From positions 1-25,925 of the IMG/VR virus record IMGVR_UViG_3300028800_000289: a DNA stretch of 25,925 nt; one strand, given 5' to 3'. The notes under the pieces were generated by a model. The model had not been told where the DNA came from and did not search any database. It was given only the letters and a program-made list of their open reading frames with translations. This document shows, piece by piece, positions 1,350-25,529 of this stretch. Positions within the stretch are counted from its first letter, which is position 1. Each line of letters opens with the position of its first letter. Made by a program: the position numbers and the translations under genes. The stretch is from a virus.

Positions 1350-1784
1350 ATGGACACGACTCTAAGATCACTAAGGTGCATGATAACAGAGATGTTGTTG
1401 CTTGAGAGAGCTCCCTCAAGGGGAGACTGGCAAAATCACATTGTTGGTTTTTTGTCAGGAGCAATCAGGGAATTCTACAAGGCTCGTCTGGGAGAGAAAA
1501 ATAAGCTCTCTGTGCCGCAAGACATTGATCACTGGTACAAAGAAGTAAGACAGCTTCGTGATGCTGCGTGTAACGTGTATAATCAAAGAACGAAGAAAAG
1601 CTTCAACAAAGAAAAAGCGTACAGACAAGCAATTGAAGAAATTAAAGACATTGACGCAAAAAAGCGAAGAGAAGCTGAACACATCATTGAGAGAGACTAT
1701 AAAACGATTTTATCGCTTCACGTGTCAGACAAAGACACTGAGGATTTTTGGGAAATGATCGATTACATAATTCTTTCAGGTTAA
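1350..1784 (+). CDS. leader-bearing helical protein, paralogue of the gene at 17555
   Basis: The 144-residue product shares several blocks with the protein at 17555-18046: SGAIREFYKARLGEK, the pattern D--HWY-EV, and D--DFWE--D near the end. It is almost entirely helical and highly charged. Its first 21 residues (MDTTLRSLRCMITEMLLLERA) form an amphipathic helix like the leaders on about ten other proteins here. That leader ends in L-L-E followed by R, close to the T4 prohead-protease rule (L/I)-x-E. By inference it may be packaged in the capsid and trimmed. The conserved aromatic and charged blocks (FYKAR, HWY, DFW) mark the family core, whose function is unknown. Confidence 0.7.
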   Translation: MDTTLRSLRCMITEMLLLERAPSRGDWQNHIVGFLSGAIREFYKARLGEKNKLSVPQDIDHWYKEVRQLRDAACNVYNQRTKKSFNKEKAYRQAIEEIKDIDAKKRREAEHIIERDYKTILSLHVSDKDTEDFWEMIDYIILSG

Positions 1785-1798
1785 AACGGGAGACTTAA

Positions 1799-1879
1799 AT
1801 GATACTTTACGCCTATATGGGTATATTATTGCTAATCATAACAGCTATCATGCTGTGGGTTTTAGCGACAGGAGATTGA
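1799..1879 (+). CDS. 26-residue single-span membrane peptide
   Basis: This tiny frame encodes a peptide that is almost entirely one hydrophobic helix (Ile/Leu-rich, residues 3-23) ending in GD. A GGGAG ribosome site lies 5 nt before the ATG. It is the first of five similar peptides of 24-26 residues between 1799 and 2448. Size and hydrophobicity resemble phage-encoded membrane micropeptides, but no family can be named. The site and the tandem arrangement support real translation. Confidence 0.6.
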   Translation: MILYAYMGILLLIITAIMLWVLATGD

Positions 1880-1880
1880 C

Positions 1881-1958
1881 ATGTTTGGAACATTAATTGT
1901 ATGTGTTGTAATTTGTTACGTGATCGTGTGTGTAGTCAAGTGTTGCGTGAAAGAGTGA
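1881..1958 (+). CDS. 25-residue Cys/Val-rich membrane peptide
   Basis: The peptide is a single Val/Ile/Cys-rich span with a short charged tail (VKCCVKE). A GGAG site sits 6 nt before the ATG, inside the end of the previous small gene, whose stop is 1 nt upstream. The four cysteines could be acylated or form disulfides, but that is speculation. It is the second member of the micropeptide run. Confidence 0.55.
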   Translation: MFGTLIVCVVICYVIVCVVKCCVKE

Positions 1959-1962
1959 CAAC

Positions 1963-2040
1963 GTGACAGCACTATCAGTTTGCGTTGTAGTATTTTTTAT
2001 TGTTTTCGTCATTGGTTGCATAAGTGAAAAGAAAAAATGA
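1963..2040 (+). CDS. 25-residue membrane peptide, GTG start, coupled to the next gene
   Basis: Starting at a GTG, this frame encodes a Val/Phe-rich hydrophobic span followed by SEKKK. Its stop codon overlaps the ATG at 2037 in an ATGA arrangement, a typical sign of translational coupling. The ribosome site is weak (GAG in the preceding stop region). Like its neighbours it is probably a single-pass peptide with a positively charged cytoplasmic tail. Confidence 0.5.
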   Translation: MTALSVCVVVFFIVFVIGCISEKKK

Positions 2041-2270: not shown

Positions 2271-2282
2271 AGGGAAATTAGA

Positions 2283-2357: not shown

Positions 2358-2367
2358 AAGGAGAAAT

Positions 2368-2448: not shown

Positions 2449-2453
2449 CTTAT

Positions 2454-2527: not shown

Positions 2528-2528
2528 A

Positions 2529-2684: not shown

Positions 2685-2687
2685 CAA

Positions 2688-3770
2688 ATGGAATTCACGT
2701 TGAACGAGCTTCGGCAGCTTCTTCGAGAGGCTGCGAATGCTGCTTATGAAATCTTGGGAGTGTCAAAGAACTCGTCTCCTGAAGAGATCAAACGTGCGTA
2801 CAGGCAGAAGGCGTTAACGTTGCATCCCGACAGAAATCCAGGCGTTGACACGACGTCGAAGATGGCAAAGCTCAACGTTGCGTATAGCATCTTATCTGAT
2901 CCCATGAAGCGCAGCAAGTACAACTCGATGGGTGACAGGACTGTTGACGCTGAAATTCATGCTGCGTCGACTGCACGAAAGGAACCGCAAGCAAAGCAAA
3001 GCGCTGCCGGTTGGAATTCTCCCTACGATGCATCATGGAATTCTCCCTACGACAAAAATAACAATTCATGGGGATCTTCAAAACAAAAGGCTGAGCCTCC
3101 GCCTTGGGAGAAGAAAGAAAAGAAAAAGCGCCCGGCGCCTGACGAAAACGATGGATGGAAAGGCTCACGCAAGACACGTGAAACTGTAGACGATCCTTAT
3201 CAAGTACAATACTTTACATACGTCAATGGAACGTCAAACAAATTTTGGAGCATACAATTAACACCTACTGCGACAAGTGGAACGTTTGATGTCATGGTAC
3301 GTTGGGGTAGAATTGGATCAGTTGGACGGAATAAACTATTTTATTTTTCAAATCTTGGCTTGGCGCGAAGGTTCATAAGAACAAAAATTGGTGAAAAGTC
3401 GTCAGAGGGTTATGTGAGATCTTCAGACACAACGGGTAACAAAAAAGAAGAACCAAAAACACAAACTCCGCCTGTTGAAAAGCCTCAAGAAGCTGTGCCT
3501 CCTCGCAAGCCTCGCTCGTCTTACAAAGTCTATGGGCCTCACCATGGTAAGCCCGCTTCTGCTCACTACGCTGGTCACATTTACACACCTCAAGGTGGAC
3601 AGACGAAGTTCAGGCCTGGGATGCGTGCAAACATGGGCTTGGGTTCAGATGGCAGACTTGGTGTGAATAATCCCGAGACAGGTGACACGGAAGCGTGGAA
3701 CATTGACGAGAGCGTGATACACGACATGCTCATAGAGTACGCATTGCGATGTGTTGAATATAATCTTTAA
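2688..3770 (+). CDS. DnaJ-domain / WGR-domain fusion protein with capsid-targeting-like leader
   Basis: This 360-residue protein has four parts. Residues 1-17 form an amphipathic leader (LNELRQLLREA) that contains L-R-E followed by A, a match to the T4 prohead-protease site. Residues 18-82 are a J domain (AYEILGVSKNSSPEEIKRAY) with the diagnostic HPD at 46-48, which in DnaJ proteins stimulates the DnaK ATPase. A low-complexity linker follows, with a duplicated WNSPYD (109 and 117) and a Lys/Pro-rich stretch. Residues about 170-245 form a WGR domain (VRWGRIG at 204-210), a nucleic-acid or protein-binding module known from PARPs and bacterial proteins. The last 80 residues are Gly/Pro-rich and then helical. 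I infer an injected or virion protein that recruits host DnaK to nucleic acid. No Shine-Dalgarno precedes the ATG. Confidence 0.85.
   Translation: MEFTLNELRQLLREAANAAYEILGVSKNSSPEEIKRAYRQKALTLHPDRNPGVDTTSKMAKLNVAYSILSDPMKRSKYNSMGDRTVDAEIHAASTARKEPQAKQSAAGWNSPYDASWNSPYDKNNNSWGSSKQKAEPPPWEKKEKKKRPAPDENDGWKGSRKTRETVDDPYQVQYFTYVNGTSNKFWSIQLTPTATSGTFDVMVRWGRIGSVGRNKLFYFSNLGLARRFIRTKIGEKSSEGYVRSSDTTGNKKEEPKTQTPPVEKPQEAVPPRKPRSSYKVYGPHHGKPASAHYAGHIYTPQGGQTKFRPGMRANMGLGSDGRLGVNNPETGDTEAWNIDESVIHDMLIEYALRCVEYNL
3759..3764 (+). promoter_or_regulatory. TATAAT box 6 nt before the 3771 start
   Basis: The box lies inside the last codons of the preceding gene, six bases before the ATG at 3771, which has no Shine-Dalgarno. 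A transcript starting at the usual distance would begin at or next to the ATG, making it leaderless. It is one of the clearest members of the window-wide set. Confidence 0.45.
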
Positions 3771-4460: not shown

Positions 4461-4736
4461 ATGGCACGAGTTATTACACAAAAATCTTTACGACGGATCA
4501 TAAACGAAGAAATTTTAAAAGAAGGTAACAAAAAGAAGTTGGTTAAACAACTTAAATTGCTTAAAGAGCGCGTCAAGGAACTTGAAGCAAAAGTTGACGA
4601 CGATCTAGGCTTGTATGATGATGCTTTTGACAGAGCAACAGCTGCTTTTGATCGAGCAACAGATGAAGATCTAGGCTTGTATGATGATGCTTTTGACAGA
4701 GCCACGAGTCGTGTTGTTAGTAAACGTCGAAAATGA
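4461..4736 (+). CDS. leader-bearing coiled-coil protein with internal repeats
   Basis: The first 22 residues (including LRRIINEEILKEG) form the amphipathic leader seen elsewhere in this window, with L-K-E followed by G at residues 19-22, an exact fit to the T4 prohead-protease rule. A Lys/Leu/Glu coiled coil follows (about 23-47). Next comes an acidic repeat unit of the type DLGLYDDAFDRAT, present twice with a shorter AAFDRAT unit between. The tail is basic (SKRRK). At the DNA level the repeat is a 35-bp perfect direct repeat. By inference it is a packaged internal protein; T4 internal proteins are similarly small and charged. Its stop overlaps the next start (ATGA). Confidence 0.65.
   Translation: MARVITQKSLRRIINEEILKEGNKKKLVKQLKLLKERVKELEAKVDDDLGLYDDAFDRATAAFDRATDEDLGLYDDAFDRATSRVVSKRRK
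4602..4636 (+). repeat. 35-bp direct repeat, copy 1
   Basis: This copy is identical to 4668-4702. The 66-bp spacing equals 22 codons, so the repeat stays in frame and duplicates DLGLYDDAFDRA in the protein at 4461. Slippage or recombination could change the copy number without breaking the frame. Confidence 0.85.
4668..4702 (+). repeat. 35-bp direct repeat, copy 2
   Basis: This is the second perfect copy of the repeat at 4602-4636, in the same reading frame. The absence of silent differences between the copies points to a recent duplication or ongoing homogenisation. Confidence 0.85.
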
Positions 4737-5718: not shown

Positions 5719-8634
5719 GTGGCAAATGATTTTTCGACGTTGGATAGCATATTTACAATGCTTTCGCCGGCAGATTTAAACGGCAGTAGCTTCAATCTTA
5801 ATTTGGGTTCGCCGATGAACGTTTCAAAGCAGCCCGTTGCGTTCTTGACGGACGCGTTAGATAGTGACGCGAAGGGCGTGCTTTCTATAAAAGATTTTCT
5901 AAAACGTTTTGAGGACATCGCGACGACGTCTGACGGGAGCACAAAGATAAAAGACGACTTGAACATGTACTTTGACTTGTACAGCACGAAGGGATTTCTG
6001 TCATTCGCGAGTGATGACATCAAGTCTTATGACGACGTAGATAACGGTAAGATGGCAGTCAAGAAAGTCGGTGGTATTGGTGAAATAATTGGAAGCAAAT
6101 TTGCACAATACATGGATCCCACGTTCGACGTCATGCTTCTGTGCTCCCGTTCGCCGTTCTTTCACCCAGCAAAGCGAAACACGAAGAAGGTGGAAATATT
6201 CCTCAACTCAATGCCACCCATCGTTGCGTCGTCAATGACGCCTTACCTTGATATCGAGTTTCAAACGGTGCGTGATCCAAGTGACAGAATACAATCACCA
6301 GGCACGCTGAAGTTTCTGTTGGGTGCCGTACCAAAGGATGGCTTGTCGAAGCCTGACTTGGCAATGCTCGACGCTCAGACTGCGTTGACTTCAAACAACA
6401 AGGAAAACAGCTTCTTTGGCATGGAGATGTTCACATCGCCGCAGACGCTCATTAACCCAACGCCCAACACTGACGTCGGAGTCAACGGGATGCGTTATTC
6501 ACGTGTCTTAGATCCGTTCAGGCCTTTTGCTTCAATCGAGGGTGTCTCGATATCAATCACTCCCACCGTTGGTATGTTTACCTACAAACGTGCTTCAGTG
6601 ACAATCAAGATACACGACAGGTCACGGTTGGCAGAAATAAGCGACTTGCTTCAGCCACTCACGTACAGCGACGTGACGGTGTGGATGACATATGGGTGGC
6701 GGTGTCCAAGCAACACTGACAATCCGTACTTTGACTACGTGAACTCAAACATGCTTTGCAGGGAGGCGTATGGCATCATCAACTCGAACTTCGCTTTCGA
6801 CAACGTGGGCCAAGTGACGCTCACGCTTGACTTGTTCACGAAGGGCGTGGGCGAGATGCGCACCGCAAAGATAAGCGACACGATAGGCGATGCTGCGTTC
6901 GTCATGAAGCAGGTGAGGCAACTGGGCGATGCGATTCGTGCGTACAGAAAGTCATTGAGGCTTGATCCGCCTGAGGGCAGCAACAAGGAAATAAGAATAT
7001 TCCAACTCCTTGACAGCGCGCAGGTGGGCGAATTTCCCGATATGAGCGCGTCTGACGTTCAGTCGACGATACAGACGCTGTCGTTGAACTATAAACGCAA
7101 CAAGAAACCTGTGCCCGATGACGTCACGAAGCTCGTAAACGCATTGACGACTTTGTACAAGCCCGATGGCACAGTGAAAAGCCAAAAGTTCAGCCTCAAG
7201 GAACGAATTCAGACGCTTGCAACGAAAGGAATCGCTGACAAGTTCAACGAGCTCTTGAGCGGCCCTGACACGTTCTTACCCTCTGACACAAAGACTGATC
7301 CCGCTCGTCAGCAGGACAGCTCGCCCCTCGTACGGGAGATAAAAAAGTACAAGCCAAACCCAAAGGCAAACGTAGGCAAGCTCAACAAAAAGGTCGTGTC
7401 GTTCGGGAAGCTGTTCAGCGTGTTCGCAGTGCAGTCTATCGTCTCCGCACAAGTCGTCGATGAGTTGCAAGTGTTCTTCTACAGCATGAACGAGCAGTGC
7501 GGCCCTGTGAGCTGTCACTCGATAGCAGAGTTTCCCATAGACATGCAGGTGTTCACTGACCAGTACAGGCAACACGTGATACAGCGCGGCGGTGAACTCA
7601 TAACTCTTGAAGAATTCTTACAGCTCGTCATCAACGCACAGGTGCTCGACGACAGGGCGATAGGCTATGGCTTGCGAACGTACTACGAACCATATGATCC
7701 CACAAACAGGGACGCACAGGTGAATAAGAACAAGGAAAAGGACTTCGAGAGCGCACTGTCGGCGAGGACGCAGAAGTACGGTGCGTTCAAGAAGCCCGTC
7801 ATAGAGATGTACGTCGAGACAACGCACCAGAAGTCGCCAAGCATGGGACAAAGCGACATTCTACAACAACTGTCTTACTCGGCAAAGGACGCCACGAGCG
7901 AGCTCCAGAAGACGCTGAAGGAAAATCAGTTGCATCGAATAATGCGAATTCACATCTATGACAAGCAGGCGAACACCGACGTCGAAGCGAGTCAGCTGCT
8001 TCGAAGCAGCGATGGGAGAGGATTTGTGGAATTTCCATCGACAGACTACGCAAAGAAGCTGTTTGGCAACCGATCACTTGGCAACGTTCAGGACACCGCA
8101 AAGGCGCTCGGCGTGACGATACAGAAGTTGATAGACGATCCTACGAGCGGCGTTAAACTCGCACAGGCGACTGACGGCACGCAGGTGAAGAATTTGGTGT
8201 CGAAGCTGATGCCAACGATAACGTACGGGTGTAATGGCACGTTAATCTTGAAAGCTGAATTGGCGAGCAAGTCTGATCCTTTACTTGCGACTGCGAACAT
8301 GATGCGCGTCAACACGACAAAGAACACAGCGGCACCAAATGGAAGTGGTGAAGGTGGAATTCCATTGACGATTATCCCGGCTGCGTTACGTGTCGTCGCA
8401 ATGGGATGCCCGCTGTTGATACCTTCTCAAAGGTATTTCATCGATTTCAACACGGGTACAACTGCGGATAATGCCTATATTTTGAACACATTGACACACA
8501 ACTTGTCACCCGGTAAATTTGAAACTACGTGTGAATTTGGATTTTCAGACTGTTATGGTGTTTTTCGTGGGACGCAGACAGTTCAACAAATGTTAAGTAG
8601 TTTAAATCCGGACATTCCGACAATCACAAAGTGA
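5719..8634 (+). CDS. large virion protein, probable baseplate/tail hub-like component
   Basis: This 971-residue protein is the largest in the window. A mid-region near residues 255-400 (including SRVLDPFRPFASIEGVSIS) is beta-rich, with conserved Trp/Tyr-Gly patterns. Residues 926-942 (THNLSPGKFETTCEFGF) resemble the closing strand of phage baseplate hub proteins of the gp27/gpD/gp44 type, where a turn of the form H-isPG-f-T is typical. This is a motif-level resemblance, not a proven homology. The start shown is a GTG; it has no Shine-Dalgarno and a TATAAT box lies 1 nt before it (5712-5717). The in-frame ATG at 5758 is therefore a real alternative. Base composition is richer in G+C than in the three genes upstream. 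Confidence 0.6.
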   Translation: MANDFSTLDSIFTMLSPADLNGSSFNLNLGSPMNVSKQPVAFLTDALDSDAKGVLSIKDFLKRFEDIATTSDGSTKIKDDLNMYFDLYSTKGFLSFASDDIKSYDDVDNGKMAVKKVGGIGEIIGSKFAQYMDPTFDVMLLCSRSPFFHPAKRNTKKVEIFLNSMPPIVASSMTPYLDIEFQTVRDPSDRIQSPGTLKFLLGAVPKDGLSKPDLAMLDAQTALTSNNKENSFFGMEMFTSPQTLINPTPNTDVGVNGMRYSRVLDPFRPFASIEGVSISITPTVGMFTYKRASVTIKIHDRSRLAEISDLLQPLTYSDVTVWMTYGWRCPSNTDNPYFDYVNSNMLCREAYGIINSNFAFDNVGQVTLTLDLFTKGVGEMRTAKISDTIGDAAFVMKQVRQLGDAIRAYRKSLRLDPPEGSNKEIRIFQLLDSAQVGEFPDMSASDVQSTIQTLSLNYKRNKKPVPDDVTKLVNALTTLYKPDGTVKSQKFSLKERIQTLATKGIADKFNELLSGPDTFLPSDTKTDPARQQDSSPLVREIKKYKPNPKANVGKLNKKVVSFGKLFSVFAVQSIVSAQVVDELQVFFYSMNEQCGPVSCHSIAEFPIDMQVFTDQYRQHVIQRGGELITLEEFLQLVINAQVLDDRAIGYGLRTYYEPYDPTNRDAQVNKNKEKDFESALSARTQKYGAFKKPVIEMYVETTHQKSPSMGQSDILQQLSYSAKDATSELQKTLKENQLHRIMRIHIYDKQANTDVEASQLLRSSDGRGFVEFPSTDYAKKLFGNRSLGNVQDTAKALGVTIQKLIDDPTSGVKLAQATDGTQVKNLVSKLMPTITYGCNGTLILKAELASKSDPLLATANMMRVNTTKNTAAPNGSGEGGIPLTIIPAALRVVAMGCPLLIPSQRYFIDFNTGTTADNAYILNTLTHNLSPGKFETTCEFGFSDCYGVFRGTQTVQQMLSSLNPDIPTITK

Positions 8635-8650
8635 TTACAAAAACGGGTGC

Positions 8651-9565
8651 ATGTTTTATGTTCTCAACATGTATAACGTCATACTTTCATACAAAGATAC
8701 AACAATTTTTAAGGCGGGTCCCGTATCTACTCAAAGCAGCGCTGAAGCACTTTTAATCGCGTGTGTGGGAAAGCAAATGATCGCAGACAGCGCGTCAATC
8801 ATTGAGGTGGCAGAAAAAGTGATAGTGCCTGAGGGCTACAAGAGCGTTGAGATCGCAGACGATGTCAAGATTTTAATTAAGGAGTCATTGATTGACGCGG
8901 CAACGGGAGTGTCAGCGGAAAAACAACGTGGCATTGATGTTCTTAAAAAGATTGCCGATGAGAATATTTGCCTCGCGCACCAACACAATGCTGATGTTCT
9001 TGATAAGATCACATCAACGTGTCCTAATTTTAAGGACGCAATCGTGGATGTGTCACGTGGCGATGTCGTCACACGGCGATGTCGTTTTTGCGGAAGCATC
9101 GCTGACACCGCAAAAAATCTGATGAGAGAAGATTTGATTGATCAGTCTGATGAAAATAAAGCGAATGCCGTTCGAATGTTTAATGACGACGGTTCACAAA
9201 CAGAAATAAAGTTGAACGACGTAATGCTCGCTCCTGAACTTCTTGAAGTCGCGCGCTCACCCATTTTTCCAATAACATTTGCTAACGATGCTGATACTGC
9301 AAAGCACGGCGCGCCAACAACGAAAATTATTCCAATTACAACGAATGATATTGGAGGATACACAACGTTGGAAGTTAACGTTGAACATTTACTCGATGTT
9401 GCGTGTTCACCTGTCAGAGGTGTCACTGCGACCGAACCGACAATCGTAGAAGGCACGTTGCCGCACTCGCAGATACCTTCACTTTATGACGAAGGTAAGG
9501 GATACAATTTTGACGATACCAACGTCGCGCCTTTCGATACAGACGTAACGTCATTGACTTCATGA
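8651..9565 (+). CDS. hypothetical protein (304 aa)
   Basis: This protein follows the large virion gene by 16 nt on the same strand and could be a structural or accessory partner. Residues 1-80 look like a mixed alpha/beta domain. A helical middle contains one CxxC pair (CRFCGS) near residue 144, and the last 140 residues are acidic, Thr/Ile-rich and probably beta. There is no signal peptide or membrane span. An in-frame ATG at 8669 is possible, but the first ATG has a weak GGGTG site 5 nt upstream. I do not recognise a family. Confidence 0.7.
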   Translation: MFYVLNMYNVILSYKDTTIFKAGPVSTQSSAEALLIACVGKQMIADSASIIEVAEKVIVPEGYKSVEIADDVKILIKESLIDAATGVSAEKQRGIDVLKKIADENICLAHQHNADVLDKITSTCPNFKDAIVDVSRGDVVTRRCRFCGSIADTAKNLMREDLIDQSDENKANAVRMFNDDGSQTEIKLNDVMLAPELLEVARSPIFPITFANDADTAKHGAPTTKIIPITTNDIGGYTTLEVNVEHLLDVACSPVRGVTATEPTIVEGTLPHSQIPSLYDEGKGYNFDDTNVAPFDTDVTSLTS

Positions 9566-9574
9566 TTATTCTCT

Positions 9575-9604
9575 TTGTACAATTTATAACCTGTGATGTA
9601 ATAT
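9575..9604 (+). promoter_or_regulatory. candidate sigma70-type promoter upstream of 9627
   Basis: TTGTAC (9575-9580) and TAATAT (9599-9604) are 18 bp apart, with TG immediately before the -10 element. It sits in the 61-bp gap before the secreted-protein gene and would give a leader of about 15-20 nt that contains the ribosome site. Unlike the TATAAT boxes elsewhere it has a recognisable -35 element. Confidence 0.45.
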
Positions 9605-9626
9605 CTTCATAAGAAAGAGGTTACAC

Positions 9627-10136
9627 ATGAAGTTCACGTCGCTCGTAATAAGTCTCCTGCTCACTGTGTCTTTATCGTCAACGTCGTCTGCGGACGACTG
9701 CGCTTTGAAACACGACTTTGGAGACGGCAGCGGCGCAGTTTGTGCACGGCGGCACTTGAACAACGATGACACGCTCGGCGGGTGGGTCGCTGACACTGCT
9801 ACGGTCGCACCCACTGCACACGTTGAGAGAACTGCGGTTGTGTACGGGAACGCAAAGATATTCCAACGAGTGTACGTCAAGGGTCACTCGGAAGTCTATG
9901 GTGACGCTCGATTGTACGATGACGCACAGATCATGGAGCACGCAAAGGTGTTCGGGAAGTCTAACGTCTATGGGAACGCTCGAGTCGGAGGCCACGTCAG
10001 CGTGAGCGGTAACGCGTACGTGGGTTGTAGCAGCCAAATCGCAGGTGGCACGTTGATCTTTGGGACAGCATATTTTTGCACCAACATTTTGAACGTAATA
10101 ACAACAGGGGTGTACTATGCGGGAGAGGTTAAGTAA
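9627..10136 (+). CDS. secreted beta-helix (hexapeptide-repeat) protein with signal peptide
   Basis: The 169-residue product starts with a clear Sec signal peptide: MK, a hydrophobic core at about residues 6-16, then a Ser-rich region and a likely cleavage after A22 (SSA/DD). From about residue 55 to 150 it consists of imperfect short repeats such as VYGNAKI, VYGDARL and VYGNARV, typical of left-handed beta-helix or polymer-forming proteins. Four Cys in the mature part could form disulfides in the periplasm. A phage protein exported to the periplasm or surface might block superinfection, alter the envelope, or decorate the host; the sequence does not decide. An AGAGG site lies about 8 nt before the ATG, and a candidate promoter lies upstream. 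Confidence 0.8.
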   Translation: MKFTSLVISLLLTVSLSSTSSADDCALKHDFGDGSGAVCARRHLNNDDTLGGWVADTATVAPTAHVERTAVVYGNAKIFQRVYVKGHSEVYGDARLYDDAQIMEHAKVFGKSNVYGNARVGGHVSVSGNAYVGCSSQIAGGTLIFGTAYFCTNILNVITTGVYYAGEVK

Positions 10137-10138
10137 TA

Positions 10139-10621
10139 ATGATCAAGTGTCCAAGTTGTAATTCGACTTCTCCTGATAAATGTTTACCCACGTGGGTATT
10201 AAAAGCTGGTAGCTGTAGCTTGTGTTACTGTGCGAATGTGTATCACAATGCACACGCCAACTCGCTTAACGCGTGGGCTTCACGAAACTATCAAAATTGT
10301 GTTGAACACGGGTTTCACGACGACGATCAGAACAAGTCTCTGCAAGAAAATCTCGCCGTGTGGATGATGAACTTGCATTCTGAAATTAGCGAAGTGTGGG
10401 AAGCCTATCGAGCAGGAAAATTATTTGAGCCTTGTGACAAGAGCGAAAAACTAAAGACGCTGGGATTACCCGTGTTGACGTGCATTGAAGAGGAGTTTGC
10501 TGACATATTTCTTAGGCTCGTTGACGACGCAAAGGCAATGAACGTTGATCTCGAAAGAGCAGTCAACATAAAACACACGTACAACGTCACCCGTCCTCAC
10601 ATGCACGGAAAGTTGTGTTGA
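10139..10621 (+). CDS. MazG-type nucleoside triphosphate pyrophosphohydrolase with N-terminal zinc-binding region
   Basis: The C-terminal 100 residues carry the MazG/all-alpha NTP pyrophosphohydrolase signature: HSEISEVWEAYR (E82, E85) and EEEFADIFLRLVDDA (E119, D122) give the EXXE-EXXD magnesium site. The closing pattern YNVTRPHMHGK is also typical of phage MazG-like proteins. These enzymes hydrolyse (d)NTPs to monophosphates, and phage versions are thought to adjust nucleotide or alarmone pools. Residues 1-60 add a Cys-rich segment with CPSC at 4-7 and C26-C29 plus C31, probably a zinc ribbon, which many phage homologues lack. It starts 2 nt after the previous stop, so it is probably in the same transcript. 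Confidence 0.88.
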   Translation: MIKCPSCNSTSPDKCLPTWVLKAGSCSLCYCANVYHNAHANSLNAWASRNYQNCVEHGFHDDDQNKSLQENLAVWMMNLHSEISEVWEAYRAGKLFEPCDKSEKLKTLGLPVLTCIEEEFADIFLRLVDDAKAMNVDLERAVNIKHTYNVTRPHMHGKLC

Positions 10622-10622
10622 C

Positions 10623-10877
10623 ATGACAATTCAATTTGACGAAGACATCACAGTTTCAGACGCGATTGATATCGTTGAAGATGTCAAGGTATGGAAGATT
10701 AAACAGTTTGATAAATTCATTGAAAAATTGCGTCAACTTGAACAAAATCCAACAAAGTGTGGTGCGTCAAGTTTAATATACACGTGTCAAGATTTGTTGG
10801 GCGAAGAGTATTGGTACTTGATGCAGGACGTTAGAGAAAATATTGATAAAATCGATGATTTTGATGATGTAAAGTGA
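10623..10877 (+). CDS. small acidic hypothetical protein
   Basis: This 84-residue, strongly acidic and mainly helical protein (ITVSDAIDIVEDVKVWKIK near the start, VRENIDKIDDFDDVK at the end) starts 1 nt after the MazG stop. There is no membrane segment or metal motif. Acidic small phage proteins are sometimes DNA mimics or inhibitors, but nothing here proves that. It is likely co-transcribed with MazG. Confidence 0.65.
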   Translation: MTIQFDEDITVSDAIDIVEDVKVWKIKQFDKFIEKLRQLEQNPTKCGASSLIYTCQDLLGEEYWYLMQDVRENIDKIDDFDDVK

Positions 10878-10894
10878 ACAATCAATTCATTTAA

Positions 10895-10900
10895 TATAAG
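10895..10900 (+). promoter_or_regulatory. TATAAG box 8 nt before the 10909 start
   Basis: A TATAAG element sits in a 31-bp AT-rich gap, eight bases before the ATG of the HAD gene, which lacks a Shine-Dalgarno. It is a one-mismatch member of the TATAAT set. Confidence 0.35.
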
Positions 10901-10908
10901 ATTGTACA

Positions 10909-11436
10909 ATGAAGATAATTTTTCTCGACTTTGATGGCGTGTTGAACTCAGCTCCATTTTTGGAGCGTGAAGGTTGGTTCGAAGGGCCGCTGACGCAACG
11001 GGAACACAAGTTTATGTGTGAACATGCAAGTTCAAACGTAGATTTTAGTGATTTACGAATGATTGATCGCACAAAGGTTATGCTTCTAAATCAGATCATT
11101 GAGCGAACAATAGCTCAAGTTGTCATATCATCGTCTTGGCGCTTGGGACGAGATGTCAACGATTTGATCGATGCATTGAAGTTTCACGGATTTGTCGGTG
11201 AAGTCATTGGAATGACACCCGAATTGTCTCATGCCATTCGTGGCGAGGAAATAGACAGTTGGATGTATGATCAGATGTTGCTTCCCGATAAAGACATAAC
11301 GTTCGTCATTCTTGACGATGATAATGACATGGGAACGCTTCGTGGTAACCTTGTGAAGACTTCAATGAAATACGGGTTGACACCGTACGACGTTGAAAGA
11401 GCGATTATGATGTTGAACAAAAATGATGACAATTGA
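10909..11436 (+). CDS. HAD-superfamily hydrolase (Swiss-army-knife RNA repair HAD-like)
   Basis: The 175-residue protein shows the HAD phosphatase motifs in order. DFDGVLNS (D7 nucleophile, D9 acid) is followed by VISSSWR at 72-78, with the motif II Ser/Thr, then RGEEID at 111-116 and VILDDDNDM at 133-141, with the acidic motif IV. This layout matches the HAD domain of the Swiss Army Knife RNA repair group, which is common as a stand-alone protein in phages. Its substrate is unknown; a 3' or 5' phosphate on nucleic acid or a nucleotide is plausible. The end overlaps a possible TTG start of the next gene. Confidence 0.85.
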   Translation: MKIIFLDFDGVLNSAPFLEREGWFEGPLTQREHKFMCEHASSNVDFSDLRMIDRTKVMLLNQIIERTIAQVVISSSWRLGRDVNDLIDALKFHGFVGEVIGMTPELSHAIRGEEIDSWMYDQMLLPDKDITFVILDDDNDMGTLRGNLVKTSMKYGLTPYDVERAIMMLNKNDDN

Positions 11437-11474
11437 CTACACTGTTATTGCAAACGAAGAAAGCGAAGAAGAAA

Positions 11475-13061: not shown

Positions 13062-13370
13062 ATGAACAAGCTCATTGAAACACGAATTTACGAAATGTTG
13101 CTTGAGAAGTTCGCGACTGTCGAAAATCCTGAAGAAGTTTCGTACTGTCCAGAATGTGGATATGCGCACACAGAAGAAAAAGAAGACGCAAAGCGTGCTC
13201 ACGAAAAGATGGGTGACGTTGAACTGTACGATGAGTTAAATGACATCGACGAAAGTGCTCCCGCGGGTTACGAGAAGATCGTAAAGACATTGAAGAAACA
13301 ACCTGGTGTGAAGAACGCGTGGGCAGTAGCAAATTCCATGAAAAATAAAGGAATTCATCCAAAGAAGTGA
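13062..13370 (+). CDS. leader-bearing small protein with recurrent phage C-terminal module
   Basis: The 102-residue protein opens with an amphipathic leader (MNKLIETRIYEMLLEKFA) ending in L-L-E/K, like the other putative capsid-targeted proteins. A CPECG pair follows near residue 29, then an acidic linker. The C-terminal block contains APAGYEKIVKTLKK and WAVANSMKNKG, a helix-turn module that I recognise as recurring at the ends of many marine phage proteins (GWEKTV--MK, NPWAL-W-MKNKG). Its function is unknown. A seven-codon frame (13042-13065) overlaps its ATG and could couple translation. Confidence 0.7.
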   Translation: MNKLIETRIYEMLLEKFATVENPEEVSYCPECGYAHTEEKEDAKRAHEKMGDVELYDELNDIDESAPAGYEKIVKTLKKQPGVKNAWAVANSMKNKGIHPKK

Positions 13371-13868: not shown

Positions 13869-14516
13869 TTACTTTGTGTAGTAATTGTTTGCAGATTTCC
13901 ACTCGTCGTTCATACGTTCAGGCATCCCAATGTCATCAAACGTGATAAGATGTACGTCAGGTGCTTTTTCGTGCTCAATTTGCACGTCATTGATGGATGG
14001 TGTAACGTTGTTGCCTTTACAAACACGTTGCAAAAGATAACAATGACTTTCATGCACGTCTGCGATTCCAGCCACAAGATTATCAATGCCTGTTGTCAAA
14101 GTGCCATTCGCCTTCATTGACTTTCGAAGCACTTCGCACACGCACAAAAATTCGAGTTCAAGTTTCAGCGATTTCTTTGCGAGGTCGTCAGGAGAAGGAA
14201 TTACATTGACGCTTGAGTTACTGAACACGATTTCAAGCGCAGTTTCAAGCTGCTTGTGCAAGTCAACGTTGTTCTCGTCACCAAGCCCAACGCTCTTCTC
14301 GGCGACTGCATCGATTTCAGGCAACACTTCTTCGTAAATTCTCTGAAAAAGTAGATGATTTCCGAAAAAGCTGTCACCCTTGCTGATCCAATGATGCGTC
14401 TGGTGCGTGAAGTAGAGCGCACGTAGCCAAGTGAGCAACACTGAAAGTTCAGGCCTGCTCACGCATTCCCACTCGGTGAGCAGGTGTTGAATTTGTAGCG
14501 TGCATTCGTTATTCAT
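13869..14516 (-). CDS. Dps-like ferritin-family protein
   Basis: The 215-residue protein contains a four-helix Dps signature: THQTHHWISKGDSFFGNHLL and YEEVLPEIDAVAEKSVGLG. The candidate ferroxidase ligands H42, H54, D69 and E73 have spacings of 12, 15 and 4 residues, the same as His51, His63, Asp78 and Glu82 of E. coli Dps. The family forms dodecameric shells that oxidise and store iron and can protect DNA from peroxide. The C-terminal 50-60 residues extend beyond the usual Dps length and end in a polar tail. The gene overlaps the next minus-strand gene by 4 bp (ATGA), linking it to the large HEAT/zinc protein. Assembly and DNA binding cannot be judged from sequence. Confidence 0.82.
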   Translation of the reverse strand: MNNECTLQIQHLLTEWECVSRPELSVLLTWLRALYFTHQTHHWISKGDSFFGNHLLFQRIYEEVLPEIDAVAEKSVGLGDENNVDLHKQLETALEIVFSNSSVNVIPSPDDLAKKSLKLELEFLCVCEVLRKSMKANGTLTTGIDNLVAGIADVHESHCYLLQRVCKGNNVTPSINDVQIEHEKAPDVHLITFDDIGMPERMNDEWKSANNYYTK

Positions 14517-16204
14517 GAAAATTTCCTTGGTGTGGCTTTCCCTGAGCTGTCTCGCATTCGCAGCAAACGATCCATACGTGAGTCAGCAGCTGACATGGGC
14601 TTTTCGTTCATAGCGTTTAGTTCGTCTTTGCGTTCATCGTAATATTTCATCCACACGCCGGCAGGAATGTGTATTTCACCATTGTCATCAGCCTTTTGTA
14701 AGCTTCGCTTTGCACGAGCGAGTTCTTTTAGGTCTCCTGCGTTTTTGATCGCGTCGATGAAAGGTTTATTTTCAGGTTGCTCAGCAATTTTTGTCCAACG
14801 ATCTTGTTGTTGTTCGGGCGTCTCAACGTTGTCCCAATCGTCGCTTTCCTTTATGATCACGCTGTCAATGAGCGCGTCGATGTTTTCCATGACATCATGA
14901 TCGTACGTTGCGTCAGGTGCAAGGCACGTACAATTAAAACTATCATTTCCACATTGTGGACACGTATCGTCAAAGTTTTCTTCTTCTTTGTCCCATGACA
15001 ACATCGCTTCGTGTCCACTTGAAAACGGTTTGTCATCACTTTTTTCTCTCACAATGCTCTCACCCAAGTCACCGACGTCAATGCCATGTCGAGCGTCGTC
15101 TGCGAGAGGCCCAGCATATACGCTTATAAATGCGTCATGCTCAACGTGTTTCTTCTGAAACGTAACTCTAAACGTGTCGTCAACGCTCAGCACGTCGCCG
15201 CTATACGGTGAAACGTCCACGCTATAACCCGCTTTGTTCAACGCGCTTACAGCTTCCTGGGAGTTCGTGATGTCGTCGCCGGGAGCAGATTTGTCAAGCC
15301 AACATTTGATCTCGCCGGTGTTCTTCTCTCGACTTGAGACTTTGTAACCAAGCGTTCCCATGACTGCGATCAATTGCTTCATCAACGAAATCGCCTTCAT
15401 CGAGCGTGCAGGCTTTACTTTTTCGTCAACGCGCTTGCTTTCGCTCAGAACTCGTCGTGGCTCTCTGAACACGTCCTCTTCAAGTGCCAAGTCTTCACGC
15501 TTCTCGATCAAGTCCATCAGTTTTTTATAAAGCTTCTCTCGATCGATCTCAACGCCACTTGTTGCTTTCGTTGCGTTGCAGTAGTTGTTACAGGCACCGC
15601 GTTCCCATGAGTATTCAACGTTACCGTCATAGTCCTCAAGTAGCTTGAACGCCAGCGTCTCGTACCACTGGTCTGACAGTTCTGGAAATTGTTGCTGTTT
15701 CCCGGGATCACCAATTCGCTTGTCAGAGTGAAGCTCAAGTGTCTCTTCGCTGTCACCGTCTTCGAGCGTTGGCTCGTCAAGCAACCGCGTCAAGTAAGTA
15801 GATCGCATTTGGTCGTCTGAGGGCCACATTGACAAAGCTTCTTTTAATGACTTCATGCTGACGCGTTCAGCGGCTGCGCATCTGACGGCGGGAGACTTGT
15901 CTTTCAACATGTTGTCCAAAAACTTCTCGGGCACCAATCGAGTCGCAAGCTTTCGAACGTGCTCGTCGCTGTGCTTCAGGCACTCAACAAACAATGAAAC
16001 TTTGACACTCGGTGCTTTACCAACGTGCGTGAGCTCGTTCATGTCGAGCATGTAATTCGCGCTCTCTGCGACAGCCCGTGGCACGTAGCCTCGAATGCAG
16101 CTACCAAACGATCGTTTTACCTCTTCACAAAATAACGTTGATAGCTTGTTTTCGTTGCGTACGTTGTTCACAATGTTCTCCAGATGTGAAAGCTTTAGCT
16201 TCAT
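14513..16204 (-). CDS. large leader-bearing protein with HEAT-like repeats and zinc knuckle
   Basis: I place the start at the ATG at 16204 (563 residues). That gives a leader, MKLKLSHLENIVNNVRNE, nearly identical in pattern to those at 17267 and 18631, with Glu at position 18 in all three. Upstream of it the open frame encodes an unlikely hydrophobic stretch. HEAT-like helices follow (HVRKLATRLVPEKFLDN and SPAVRCAAAERVS). A long, charged middle part comes next, then a CPQCGNDSFNCTC knuckle (C-x2-C-x6-C-x-C) near the last quarter, and a helical C-terminus. I infer a capsid-internal or virion protein. A TATAAT box lies 15 nt upstream. Its end overlaps the Dps-like gene start. Confidence 0.75.
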   Translation of the reverse strand: MKLKLSHLENIVNNVRNENKLSTLFCEEVKRSFGSCIRGYVPRAVAESANYMLDMNELTHVGKAPSVKVSLFVECLKHSDEHVRKLATRLVPEKFLDNMLKDKSPAVRCAAAERVSMKSLKEALSMWPSDDQMRSTYLTRLLDEPTLEDGDSEETLELHSDKRIGDPGKQQQFPELSDQWYETLAFKLLEDYDGNVEYSWERGACNNYCNATKATSGVEIDREKLYKKLMDLIEKREDLALEEDVFREPRRVLSESKRVDEKVKPARSMKAISLMKQLIAVMGTLGYKVSSREKNTGEIKCWLDKSAPGDDITNSQEAVSALNKAGYSVDVSPYSGDVLSVDDTFRVTFQKKHVEHDAFISVYAGPLADDARHGIDVGDLGESIVREKSDDKPFSSGHEAMLSWDKEEENFDDTCPQCGNDSFNCTCLAPDATYDHDVMENIDALIDSVIIKESDDWDNVETPEQQQDRWTKIAEQPENKPFIDAIKNAGDLKELARAKRSLQKADDNGEIHIPAGVWMKYYDERKDELNAMNEKPMSAADSRMDRLLRMRDSSGKATPRKFS

Positions 16205-17266: not shown

Positions 17267-17551
17267 ATGAAGCTAAAGCTGTCAGAACTAAGAGAAATCG
17301 TGAAACAAACACTGAACGAGCGTGCACACACAGGAACGTACACGCTTCTCGACAAGTTTAACCCACACATGCACACCGTTGACGACGTGTACCACGCCCT
17401 GATGAACGAGTTTTATGCAGTCGCTTCAGAGCTCGAAGTGAAGTCAGCGACAGATCCAGAGTTTGTGAGCTACGCAAAGGACATGATGCGTGGAAACGTG
17501 CCACAGGATGTGGTAGACGTTGTGATGAAACGCTTGACGAACAAAAAGTGA
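17267..17551 (+). CDS. leader-bearing helical protein
   Basis: I start this gene at the ATG at 17267 (94 residues), because that places the leader MKLKLSELREIVKQTLNERA at the N-terminus, as in the proteins at 16204 and 18631. An earlier GTG at 17237 in the same frame overlaps the GNAT end. The leader ends L-N-E/R at position 18. The remaining part is a helical domain (TVDDVYHALMNEFYAVASE and DVVDVVMKRLTNKK) rich in acidic and aromatic residues. No family is recognised. Capsid targeting is inferred from the leader only. Confidence 0.7.
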   Translation: MKLKLSELREIVKQTLNERAHTGTYTLLDKFNPHMHTVDDVYHALMNEFYAVASELEVKSATDPEFVSYAKDMMRGNVPQDVVDVVMKRLTNKK

Positions 17552-17554: not shown

Positions 17555-18046
17555 ATGAAAAGACAAATTGAGATTGAACAAGAAGAACTGCTACGAGACT
17601 TGATCAAAGAAACGATCATTCTCGAGAAGATGGCTTATGATCGTGAACACTTCATTGACAAGATGGATGAATACTTGACGGGTGCGATCAGAGAATTCTA
17701 TAAGGCACGTTTGGCGGAGAAATATTTCTCCTGTCGAAACCAAGACGTTAATCACTGGTACGTTGAAGTTCATCGACTTTTGACTTCGTTTGAAGAGGCG
17801 TATCGACACAAAATTAAAGGATTTTCAGACAAAGACAAGGCATTCAAGTCTGCGAAAGCAGACATCGTTGGAATTTCTGACGAGCGTAAGCGACTGGCAA
17901 CGTCAATCATCATTGATGACTATGACATTGATGAACTGAACGTTCAAATAACAGACGATGATACAAGAGACTTTTGGGAATTAGTCGACAATGTGCTCGA
18001 CGGAAAGCGAAAGCTCGTCACGAGGTATCTGTTAGATCGCAAGTGA
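17555..18046 (+). CDS. leader-bearing helical protein, paralogue of the gene at 1350
   Basis: The 163-residue protein shares TGAIREFYKARLAEK, the patterns D-NHWY-EV and DTRDFWELVDN with the protein at 1350. Its N-terminus (residues 1-25, ending IILEKM) is longer and more acidic but has the same amphipathic character and an I-L-E/K step. The copies are about 16 kb apart, next to different genes, and well diverged at the protein level outside these blocks. The C-terminal ten residues are basic. It starts 3 nt after the previous stop. The function is unknown, and packaging is inferred only from the leader. Confidence 0.7.
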   Translation: MKRQIEIEQEELLRDLIKETIILEKMAYDREHFIDKMDEYLTGAIREFYKARLAEKYFSCRNQDVNHWYVEVHRLLTSFEEAYRHKIKGFSDKDKAFKSAKADIVGISDERKRLATSIIIDDYDIDELNVQITDDDTRDFWELVDNVLDGKRKLVTRYLLDRK

Positions 18047-18631
18047 TTATAATATCGTCCATTCACCGTTTTGCGAATTTAGTGTTGCTATCTTTTTTGC
18101 TGTTATTGGTTTTGTGGCCCAGTGTTCGTGTGTCTCAGGTGCATCAGGAACTTGTCCTTTCAACGCACGAATTGCTGAGTGTTTCGATTCAGGAGGGGCG
18201 CGCAACAAATCTTTTGGCCATCCTTCTTCTTCTGCATAATCCATGAATTTACCAACATCGAACGTTGAACCGTATTCATTATCAGGAGACGAGGGAGCGT
18301 CAAGAAAATTTTCTTCAACGTCAACTTCACCTGGAAGTTTGTTCGTCGCATAGACGTAGAGCGTGTCTGACTTGTTTATGGATCCTCCAAGCGCATCAAG
18401 CGCGTAGTCAATGCTTGGTGCCCAACTAACACGTGGCGTAAAATCGTCTTCAATTGTAAATCCGTGCGGTCCCGACATTGGAAAGCGGGGCGTTCGTGGC
18501 GTGAACGTAAACTCTTTTCCAAGATCGGTTGCTGACACATGATACCAATTAAATCCGCCAAAGTGTGGGTTAATGGCTTCATGAAGAGCTTTTCTGATTA
18601 TCGTGCGAAGTTCACTAAGTCGTAAACGCAT
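18047..18631 (-). CDS. leader-bearing protein, possible ADP-ribosyltransferase-like fold
   Basis: Residues 1-20 are the shared leader (MRLRLSELRTIIRKALHEAI), with L-H-E/A at positions 16-19 exactly matching the T4 protease rule. The following domain opens with NWYHVSATDLG (H31, S33), then VSWAPSIDYALDAL (68-81), then TLYVYATN (90-97). The late block DAPETHEHWATKPITAKKI contains Glu residues. This order of His, Ser/Thr-rich strand and Glu is reminiscent of compact ADP-ribosyltransferase folds such as rifampin ADP-ribosyltransferase, but the resemblance is weak. The T4 precedent is Alt, a capsid-packaged ADP-ribosyltransferase injected with DNA. It runs convergent to the gene at 17555 with adjoining stops. 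Confidence 0.6.
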   Translation of the reverse strand: MRLRLSELRTIIRKALHEAINPHFGGFNWYHVSATDLGKEFTFTPRTPRFPMSGPHGFTIEDDFTPRVSWAPSIDYALDALGGSINKSDTLYVYATNKLPGEVDVEENFLDAPSSPDNEYGSTFDVGKFMDYAEEEGWPKDLLRAPPESKHSAIRALKGQVPDAPETHEHWATKPITAKKIATLNSQNGEWTIL

Positions 18632-19608: not shown

Positions 19609-19613
19609 AGATT

Positions 19614-22280: not shown

Positions 22281-22994
22281 ATGATTAACTATATTGAAAA
22301 TTGCAGGCACGAATACGTCACCCGGCAGGCTAAAGAACTGTTTAACGTGATATCTTCGCTAATGGCGCATAAAGTTCCGAGTGAAGTCGATGAAAAAATT
22401 TGTTACGATTTTGTCATCAGGTGGAATTCACCCGATTGTAGAAATCCCGGCACAAAGATTGATCAAATGATTTTTGATCGCGTCACCGACATGTTCAACG
22501 AGCTCGACATTAGCATTGACATATCGCGCCAAGGTATAAAAAATCAAATTACGGTGTCATTGTTACAGGGCGTCACGTTGTTAAAAAAGAACATAACGTT
22601 CTACTGGTCGAATAGTTGTGGTATGTATGTAAATAAACGTACTGGTAAGCCTTCATATGATTACGAAACTAAAATTGGTCCACAATTTACGGGTACGAAG
22701 TCACAGTGGAATGAGTTACTCGTTGATACAATTCTTGACTGTGCAAGAGATGTTGAGACAACGCATCATTGTCGTAAGCTTGACACGATATACGTAAATG
22801 CAAGCGTGCTCTCTATTTTGGAGACGAGCATGAGACACAAACCCGTGATTGAAGAAAATTCCCTTCGAGGAACGATTAGAGGCATGTTGTGTAACGTAAA
22901 AATTATCGTCAACAACGATCTTGACAACAGAGTGATCATTGCGTTGACAACGAACGGAGTAAGATATCAAGGTGAAGTAGCAATCATCGATTAA
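22281..22994 (+). CDS. hypothetical protein (237 aa)
   Basis: It has a good ribosome site (AAAGG, about 6 nt upstream), unlike many neighbours. The N-terminal half is helical with several Cys. The C-terminal third, LDTIYVNASVLSILETSM through GTIRGMLCNVKIIVNNDLD, resembles in style the P-domain to C-terminal strands of phage capsid proteins (an I-Y-V--xxL helix, then GTI-GM-V-V-N-D). That is a loose resemblance; the N-terminus does not look like a capsid protein. A hairpin terminator follows 21 nt after the stop, so this is probably a monocistronic unit or the end of one. No family is assigned. Confidence 0.65.
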   Translation: MINYIENCRHEYVTRQAKELFNVISSLMAHKVPSEVDEKICYDFVIRWNSPDCRNPGTKIDQMIFDRVTDMFNELDISIDISRQGIKNQITVSLLQGVTLLKKNITFYWSNSCGMYVNKRTGKPSYDYETKIGPQFTGTKSQWNELLVDTILDCARDVETTHHCRKLDTIYVNASVLSILETSMRHKPVIEENSLRGTIRGMLCNVKIIVNNDLDNRVIIALTTNGVRYQGEVAIID

Positions 22995-23015
22995 TTCATA
23001 ATTTGAATACATCGT

Positions 23016-23043: not shown

Positions 23044-23080
23044 CTTATACAAGACTATTCACATTGATTATGAAACGAAT

Positions 23081-23683: not shown

Positions 23684-24525
23684 CATTTATACGTTATACA
23701 TCGGATACAAAAATACATGTCATATTAAAATGTGATACTTGTGGATATGAATTTGAACAATATACGAGTAAAGTTAAAAACATTAATGGCGTTCATTTTT
23801 GTCCTGGAATTGGTGTAGGACAAAGAACAAATGGATCAGAATGTAAAAAGATTGGTATGGCTCGTGGCGGAGCATTTCAACTTGCAATGCAAGAAAATTG
23901 TTTAATAAAATATGGTGTTAAAAGCACATGGGCGGTACCTGAAATTCGTGAAAAAATAAAACAAACAAATCTTGTACATTGTGGTTATGAAAATCCATTG
24001 TCAAGTCCTGAAATACGTCGTAATATAGAACAAACAAATTTAGAACGTTATGGTGTAAAATGTGTTTTTCAATTAGAAAGTGTGCGACAAAATTGTAAAT
24101 CTCCTGAAGCAAATAAAAAGAAATATGAAACTGCACGTAAAAATGGCACGTTATGGATTTCAGGACATGAAAACAATTTGTATGATGCGTTGTGTGAAAT
24201 ATTTGGTGTTGACGATATTTTACGTCAAAAACATGTATATAAATGGCCAATTGATTTTTACATAAAAAGTATTGATACATACGTTCAGTATGACAGTCAT
24301 TGGCATGGTTATAACGATCAAGGAATAATTCGTGATTTTGATGAAATACGTGAGCGCAAAAATAAACATGACATGTTCATACGTAAACGCGTGATAGATG
24401 ACATCATACAAAACGTGTACTTTGTCACGCATTCTTTGAAACTTGTTAGATACATTGGCACGAAAAGTGGTAACATTGATCGTGAAGTTTTGAACAATTT
24501 GATAAATGAAAGTATGGTAACATGA
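23680..24525 (+). CDS. free-standing homing endonuclease-like protein with KYGV repeats and VSR-like nuclease domain
   Basis: This 281-residue protein begins with a Cys-rich segment (C18, C21, C41, C55), probably a zinc finger. Repeats follow of the form KYGVKSTWAVPEIREKIKQT (near 77), a second copy at about 101 and a partial third at about 122. This KYG-type repeat is typical of phage homing endonucleases. The C-terminal part has E164, PIDFYIK (D192) and YVQYDSHWHGY (D205, H207, H209), then KHDMF (D231), consistent with a VSR/EDxHD-type nuclease. It is AT-rich, as is the endonuclease at 19633, but has a different DNA-binding array. Stop/start overlaps (ATGA) on both sides suggest insertion between genes of one operon. 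Confidence 0.8.
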   Translation: MTFIRYTSDTKIHVILKCDTCGYEFEQYTSKVKNINGVHFCPGIGVGQRTNGSECKKIGMARGGAFQLAMQENCLIKYGVKSTWAVPEIREKIKQTNLVHCGYENPLSSPEIRRNIEQTNLERYGVKCVFQLESVRQNCKSPEANKKKYETARKNGTLWISGHENNLYDALCEIFGVDDILRQKHVYKWPIDFYIKSIDTYVQYDSHWHGYNDQGIIRDFDEIRERKNKHDMFIRKRVIDDIIQNVYFVTHSLKLVRYIGTKSGNIDREVLNNLINESMVT

Positions 24526-24833
24526 AAACAGTGCCACAATGTGTAGATTTTTTGAATGAAGCGTTGGCGCTTGATCCCGTAGCGATTAGTGATCTAATGT
24601 TAATACATTACGTTTGTAATGAAAAACTTGCGGATCATCCGACGATACAAGTAGGTGGATCGTCAAAAGTAAAACTTATCAGCGCTTTTGGACTTTTGAA
24701 TGGTCTTTTTGGCACAATCGGTGACACAGGCGTGGGACACATGTTCTACGAAGTTGACGAAGTAAACGGGAAGCGCGTCGTCACGAAGTTTGGGTTGGTT
24801 GGTGATCCAAACAAATTTTTGAATAAAGCATAA
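24522..24833 (+). CDS. conserved phage hypothetical protein
   Basis: The 103-residue protein has a helical N-terminus (CVDFLNEALALDPVAISDLM), the block NEKLADHPTIQVGG, and a loop-rich centre (FGLLNGLFGTIGDTGVG) before a closing beta pair. I recognise this arrangement (a DP-A--L helix, HP-IQV, LLNG) as a recurring small protein of marine phages, but its role is unknown. The ATG overlaps the previous stop (ATGA). It is soluble, with no membrane segment. Confidence 0.7.
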   Translation: MKTVPQCVDFLNEALALDPVAISDLMLIHYVCNEKLADHPTIQVGGSSKVKLISAFGLLNGLFGTIGDTGVGHMFYEVDEVNGKRVVTKFGLVGDPNKFLNKA

Positions 24834-24841
24834 TTATAAAC

Positions 24842-25156
24842 ATGTCTTTTGACGAAAGTCTCATTCGAGAGTACGTGTCATTGGTTTTTGAAAAGCGTTC
24901 TACTACGAATCACTACAAGACGGTGTGCAAAGATTGTGGCGATGTGATAAATCAGTGCAGGTGTCCGGGAGACAAAAAAGTAACCTACGATACTTGTGAA
25001 AAGTGCAGCGAAATCAATGAACTCGACGTCGAAGAAGACAAAGAAGAATTAGACGAGATGTCAACGTGTGCAGGCATAAGCGGCGTGACTTTGCCATTAG
25101 GCATGTCACCGCCAAATTCAACGTCTTCACCCAAAAAGAGAGCAACGTGGAAGTAA
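24842..25156 (+). CDS. leader-bearing zinc-knuckle protein with recurrent GV-LPLG end
   Basis: The 104-residue protein starts with an amphipathic leader (MSFDESLIREYVSLVFEKR). It then has CKDCGDVINQCRC (C-x2-C-x6-C-x-C) and CEKC, a zinc-binding region with the same spacing as the knuckle in the protein at 14513. A Glu/Asp-rich linker is followed by a C-terminus reading GISGVTLPLGMSPPN, which resembles end motifs in other marine phage small proteins. The leader, zinc and terminal modules suggest a processed, packaged protein. TATAAA ends 1 nt before the ATG. Confidence 0.7.
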   Translation: MSFDESLIREYVSLVFEKRSTTNHYKTVCKDCGDVINQCRCPGDKKVTYDTCEKCSEINELDVEEDKEELDEMSTCAGISGVTLPLGMSPPNSTSSPKKRATWK

Positions 25157-25157
25157 C

Positions 25158-25529
25158 ATGAAAACAACCGTCTCAAAGTTACGTACGCTAATTCGTGAGT
25201 ATATTGAACTTCCACGTGAAGAGCTTGTCAAGATGATCAATGACATGCCTCCCGACGAAGTTGCAACAGAAGACTTCGACGACTACGAAGACGATGACGA
25301 TTATATGACAACAAACGATTTGCTCATGAACGCAGTGAAAGAGTTTGCGTCGCACATCAGCAATGATTTACCTGACGACACCGACGCGCAGGACGTTGCA
25401 CCTGACATGGCAGAAAACTTCTTTTACGAATACCCACAGTGGAAAGAGTGGGCGCGGGAAGTAAAAATGAAAAAGTGGAATGTAAAGGAGATCGTGACAG
25501 ACGCAGTCTATGACGCACTAACAAAATAA
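25158..25529 (+). CDS. leader-bearing acidic protein
   Basis: The 123-residue protein opens with MKTTVSKLRTLIREYIELP, the shared leader (I-R-E at 12-14). A strongly acidic middle follows (DFDDYEDDDDY, then DLPDDTDAQD), and the protein ends in an aromatic-rich helical part (FFYEYPQWKEWAREVK). A GGAAG-type site lies a few bases before the ATG. Acidic packaged proteins may neutralise basic targets or mimic DNA, but this is not shown. It starts 1 nt after the previous stop and is separated from gp32 by a 98-bp leader region. Confidence 0.7.
   Translation: MKTTVSKLRTLIREYIELPREELVKMINDMPPDEVATEDFDDYEDDDDYMTTNDLLMNAVKEFASHISNDLPDDTDAQDVAPDMAENFFYEYPQWKEWAREVKMKKWNVKEIVTDAVYDALTK

Follow-up and report, generated by a model that had tools for sequence, protein, structure and literature searches.

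A candidate capsid-targeting leader on many unrelated proteins of large T4-type phages

Phage proteins that are packaged in the head and injected into the host have usually been identified one by one. A common loading device is described for T4, whose gp21 protease cuts after (L/I)xE and which ejects several of its internal proteins into the host; the leader of the internal protein IPIII suffices to bring foreign proteins into the head (PMC9026906). Alt, an enzyme that is also packaged by T4, has propeptides removed at both of its termini (PMC9026906). In phage P1, N-terminal residues direct the DarB protein, or a reporter that is fused to them, to the head (PMC9024508). The giant phage SPN3US has many head proteins, some of which are processed by the prohead protease and ejected into the host (PMC5694885, PMC10052503).

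The DNA under study (the window) is a linear virus record of 25,925 bases with 42 genes. Its close relatives are the contigs G001 and G005; larger relatives, reached by way of a superoxide-dismutase-like gene, include records of 298, 200, 140 and 116 kb, and the window has 7-9 of its 42 genes in common with each of these four, at ~40-42% identity. What members of this clade share is an amphipathic N-terminal helix of ~20 residues at the start of otherwise unlike proteins (referred to below as tagged). The arrangement is like that of T4 IPI-IPIII, in which a short N-terminal propeptide with (L/I)xE is carried by unrelated and poorly conserved proteins, is cut by gp21, and sends its cargo to the prohead core (PMC9026906). 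However, the T4 leader, MKTYQEFIAE, has only ~10 residues and is found on few proteins, whereas the clade leader is twice that length, has an unrelated consensus, and marks as many as 31 genes in a single genome, tandem arrays among them. Some tagged proteins are, like Alt, marked at both ends, the C-terminal mark being the tail of the scaffold; the clade proteins have no sequence relation to that enzyme, and ADP-ribosyltransferase activity is not established for them (a candidate among the tagged proteins of G001 was dropped, its Pfam match being weak and its alignment-free AlphaFold model having a pLDDT of 36). The likeness to DarB lies in the direction of a protein to the head by its N-terminal residues, but P1 is without a separate scaffold and has one large cargo in place of dozens of small ones (PMC9024508). 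The likeness to SPN3US lies in the number and fate of the head proteins; the abstracts of the SPN3US reports describe no shared leader of the clade's type (PMC5694885, PMC10052503). As far as sequence allows one to judge, the device is of the same kind as the T4 leader, but it uses a different peptide, serves a much larger set of cargo, and belongs almost wholly to uncultured phages. The reading that is developed here is that the leader is a capsid-targeting propeptide cleaved by a gp21-type protease, and we assign it a probability of roughly 0.82.

The leader emerges from a de novo motif search in which the N-terminal 26 residues of 795 proteins were compared, all of them drawn from four large relatives and none from the window. 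The resulting motif, K-[LI]-T-x-x-Q-L-R-x-I-I-K-E-E-L, is present in 13% of the 795 protein starts, with a log-likelihood of 678 at the N-termini vs 308-402 for control sets of internal or shuffled segments. A refined leader profile was built on the distant relatives G011-G014, G002 and G003, and both it and an earlier, wider profile were applied to the window genes. Five of these 42 genes score at least 14 with the refined profile, whereas shuffling gives 0.009 such genes on average and never more than 1 in any of 2000 rounds. Nine related contigs yield 76 tagged proteins with 49 unrelated bodies, no more than 31 per genome and frequently in tandem runs. At a score of at least 10, clade genomes of 55 kb or more have 7-36 tagged genes each, where shuffling expects at most 1, and the control T4-type phages T4, P-SSM4, HTVC008M, immuto and Mel-JY01 have 0-3 each, which is background. 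(The gene calls come from a simple script of our own, so that individual starts may be wrong; the control genomes passed through the identical caller.) The enrichment check that the preliminary description of this DNA had named thus speaks for it, the leader motif being in strong excess over shuffled, internal and unrelated-phage sequences. The N-termini of T4 IPII, gp22, gp24 and Alt fit the leader profile poorly, at -11 to -17, and there is no resemblance to the T4 leader peptide.

A pattern scan of viral contigs with leader residues 1-15 retrieved at least 120 stretches, the largest number of copies among the matches listed being seven, on a contig of 7.6 kb. In the collection of isolated phages the sole match, a weak one, is to a metagenomic phage of 484 kb, and the collection of prokaryote genomes has four matching records, all of them MAGs. 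The near-absence from isolated phages, set beside the at least 120 stretches from viral metagenomes, makes the device appear to be confined to uncultured phages. The literature searched contained no match to the core leader sequences.

In the window itself, about ten proteins had been described as opening with the leader. Each of the ten has an in-frame ATG start in a real open reading frame; profile scores single out five clear leaders, leave two or three divergent ones, and give two no support:

2688..3770, + strand: leader MEFTLNELRQLLREA (residues 1-15); score 19.8, 0/3000 shuffles
4461..4736, + strand: leader MARVITQKSLRRIINEEILKEG, site LKE|G; score 14.2, shuffle p 0.0017
17267..17551, + strand: leader MKLKLSELREIVKQTLNE, site LNE|R; score 16.2, 0/3000 shuffles
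18047..18631, - strand: leader MRLRLSELRTIIRKALHE, site LHE|A; score 21.8, 0/3000 shuffles
25158..25529, + strand: leader MKTTVSKLRTLIRE; score 18.9, shuffle p 0.0003
17555..18046, + strand: probable divergent leader ELLRDLIKETIILE; first profile 9.7, refined profile 3.2, p 0.12
14513..16204, - strand: weak leader MKLKLSHLENIV; first profile 6.8, refined profile p 0.028
1350..1784, + strand: divergent N-terminal helix, leader unsupported by score; -0.2 (background), p 0.019
13062..13370, + strand: leader unsupported; score -6.8 (background), p 0.21
24842..25156, + strand: N-terminal leader unsupported; score -7.3 (background), p 0.088

The 2688 protein passes directly from its leader into a DnaJ domain (residues 19-79, Pfam 2.2e-20), which is followed by WGR (residues 175-247, 1.3e-15); it has a tagged homologue in G002, and DnaJ is found without the tag in G011. 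The 4461 gene (21.0 with the first profile) specifies a charged protein of 91 residues, and the 94-residue product of 17267 is kept in G001 and G005. The 194-residue protein that starts at 18631 on the minus strand (AlphaFold model without alignment, pLDDT 32) occupies a slot whose cargo varies among relatives: G001 has no homologue of it and fills the same slot with a different tagged protein. Searches of the PDB with the 18631 protein and with the tagged G001 protein that had been the ADP-ribosyltransferase candidate produced no match, and the search of viral contigs produced no homologues of the 18631 and 2688 proteins. The 25158 product is an acidic protein of 123 residues with a body homologous to that of the tagged protein at G002 72785-73615. 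The divergent candidates include a pair of paralogues, 17555 (163 residues) and 1350, whose alignment begins at residue 8. The start of the HEAT-repeat protein at 16204 is independently supported, since the proteins of six relatives share this first residue and open with sequences of the MxLKLxxLQxV type. As for the two unsupported genes, the zinc-ribbon region of 13062 has a relative in G011 (86721-86912) that bears a perfect leader, and the helix of 24842 lies ~90 residues inside a longer protein in G001 and G005. Finer details of the preliminary description are accurate: three leaders (16204, 17267 and 18631) have Glu at position 18, and (L/I)xE precedes Ala or Gly in 2688 (LRE|A), 18631 (LHE|A) and 4461 (LKE|G).

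Among the relatives, (L/I)xE after the leader is much commoner than chance in both of two sets. Among the 49 body families, 32 have (L/I)xE just behind the helix vs 10.8 expected (z 7.7), and Glu alone is enriched two residues after Leu or Ile; Asp, Lys, Arg and Gln are not. The other set consists of 72 independent proteins, among the matches listed, that were selected by residues 1-15 alone and from which related bodies were removed. Of these, 48 have (L/I)xE within residues 16-30 vs 16.9 (z 9.5), 35 have Glu at residue 21 or 22, Asp is depleted, and Ala is the commonest next residue. This excess is not circular, because only residues 1-15 entered the selection. Within the smaller sample formed by the window, G001, G005, G002 and G003, the (L/I)xE excess past residue 16 is not significant (6 vs 4.5 of 31).

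A propeptide of this kind calls for a protease, and the gp21-like enzyme that had been proposed as its partner is present in the large relatives and missing from the window record. PF03420 (Peptidase_S77, the gp21-type protease) is matched in G011-G014 with E values of 1e-25 to 4e-28; scores in relatives are 81-113 bits vs a Pfam cut-off of 27, the T4 positive control giving 372. It is found in 12/12 leader-bearing records of at least 140 kb and in 15/20 leader-bearing records overall, vs 2/20 random viral records, whose average size is lower. In one MAG, leaders and protease lie on the same 306-kb contig, which we interpret as phage DNA placed in a bacterial bin. The window, a fragment of 25.9 kb without head genes, for that reason shows no protease gene, and for the same reason the small close relatives match neither PF03420 (control positive in T4 and others) nor PF07068. 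The phage from which the window derives presumably has the protease.

Tagged genes are also part of the head module. In G011, G012 and G014 the terminase comes first and is followed by a tagged gene, the portal, a conserved gene, the protease, a pair of tagged genes, the scaffold and the capsid protein, further small genes being scattered among them; G013 is without the left part. The G011 capsid protein is of the gp23 type (PF07068, E 1e-76). The capsid protein itself has a leader-like start, MKYFSLDQLAQGIRE, and VLKE|SN of the clade aligns with FLTE|A, the cut site of T4 gp23. In six phages the scaffold has RWxxLAGI(I/V)K, or something close to it, as its C-terminus, and an RWxxLAGI tail is also borne by the tagged proteins G011 165413, G011 246636 and G024 11361, and by three more proteins of G025 that have no recognised leader. 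A scaffold with the leader's own motif had been anticipated; a scaffold is there, and what it has in common with some tagged proteins is this C-terminal tail. The shared tail ties the leader to the prohead core, and suggests the existence of a C-terminal signal as well.

One objection is that tagged genes are paralogues of one ancestor of which only the N-terminus is still recognisable, and the way in which tagged genes follow one another in long runs in G024 and G025 does suggest local duplication. However, body clustering rejects shared paralogy: the 49 families, and the 72 proteins among the matches listed, are without detectable body similarity, DnaJ, P-loop kinase and L,D-transpeptidase belong to families of their own, and the same DnaJ domain is also found without the leader, all of which makes common descent very improbable. 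It is improbable too, if less extremely so, that the leader helix docks at a destination other than the virion (a replication compartment, a membrane, a host factor) and that (L/I)xE is a by-product of amphipathic helix structure. The leader is amphipathic, many tagged genes are far removed from the head genes, and bodies such as DnaJ-WGR and the kinase could do their work in the infected cell without being packaged. What such docking leaves unaccounted for is the enrichment of Glu, to the exclusion of Asp, Lys, Arg and Gln, after Leu or Ile and at a nearly fixed residue, the location of tagged genes in the head operon, the scaffold tail on some of their products, and the constant company of a gp21-type protease.

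A more restricted form of prohead targeting, whose probability overlaps with that of the main reading, is that the cargo goes to the prohead as core or scaffold parts of a very large head, there to be cut and for the most part lost, rather than as effectors. T4 gp67 and gp68 are cut and mostly lost at head maturation in just this way. The conservation, in four genomes, of tagged genes beside protease and scaffold fits this possibility, as does the small size and acidity of many tagged proteins, T4 internal proteins being basic. Most tagged genes nevertheless lie outside the head operon and are poorly conserved, enzymes and chaperones are among the cargo, and slots change their contents between close relatives; we consider it rather unlikely that core components are the whole story.

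The preferred reading, a cleaved capsid-targeting propeptide, draws on the presence of the tag on unrelated bodies, the apparent selection for (L/I)xE, the joint presence of genes for protease, scaffold and capsid, and the location of tagged genes in the head operon. Points against it are that the leader is unlike T4 leaders, that the window record has no head genes, that the (L/I)xE excess is not significant in the small sample around the window, that the random control records are smaller, and that the cargo includes an L,D-transpeptidase, an enzyme that is normally periplasmic. The capsid-targeting interpretation put forward in the preliminary description is supported by the enrichment of the motif, the protease of the large relatives, the (L/I)xE sites and the scaffold tail; it needs correcting in that the window has fewer than ten leaders and that the motif differs from T4's. 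The leader helix would dock a tagged protein onto the prohead core, probably by way of the scaffold, during head assembly; the gp21-type protease would then cut after (L/I)xE at the end of the helix and leave the mature cargo in the head, and by analogy with T4 part of that cargo would be ejected into the host with the DNA. That some of the cargo, at least, reaches the host we consider somewhat more likely than not. The broader proposition is that a large, essentially uncultured group of giant T4-type phages has a general loading code, made up of an N-terminal helix and a protease site, sometimes with the C-terminal tail of the scaffold, and that exchangeable tagged cargo encoded in tandem arrays gives each phage a packaged set of up to ~30 delivered proteins, which sequence alone would suffice to list; we consider its chances to be slightly better than even. 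Were the leader truly a loading tag, the full candidate set could be taken directly from the sequence of any genome or metagenome contig that belongs to the group, and the many tagged proteins without a family would be the first to consider for roles in anti-defence and host take-over.

The tagged bodies include DnaJ with WGR, a P-loop kinase (domain from residue 28, right behind the leader), L,D-transpeptidase, HEAT-repeat proteins and many without a family, and a good many are small and acidic. Tagging reaches 31/337 genes in G025, many of them in long runs. A small C-terminal module, TYKVYG...HTR..., is common to the tagged proteins of window 2688-3770 and of G002 10152-11597, 50174-50986, 72785-73615 and 75855-76853, which have otherwise different bodies. 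The protein encoded by G011 192339-193265 has two leader copies, the second of which is internal and stands directly before a body that bears its own tag in other phages; this is apparently a fusion of two cargo genes.

The window contains one relative of a head gene:

22281..22994, + strand: free-standing piece of gp23-type capsid protein, 237 residues; sole head-gene relative found in the window

Its product is 33-39% identical to the gp23-type capsid proteins of G011-G014 over 83-119 residues (E to 2e-13), has no Pfam match of its own, and is possibly a vertex protein, a remnant or a decoy. The superoxide-dismutase-like protein (PF02777, 3e-18) has an N-terminal extension and is represented by G003 54687-55400 (L032), G005 38195-38899 (L026/L027) and L033-L053. 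It is kept in 21 contigs and adjoins tagged genes in several, its extension has sites of the LDE|A type, and its profile detected no relative in prokaryote genomes. G005 8600-10189 (L025) has, by eye only, a start like that of a phage-encoded GroEL-type chaperonin.

T4-type late promoters are about equally rare upstream of tagged and untagged clade genes. TAATTA is found within 25 bases upstream of 4/42 window starts, its genome rate being 0.2%, and only 14% of starts have an SD-like site. Flavobacterium phage immuto has the same start-codon pattern, with TAATTA at 11.5% and SD-like sites at 9%, and this may be a sign that the window phage has a host of the Bacteroidota type.
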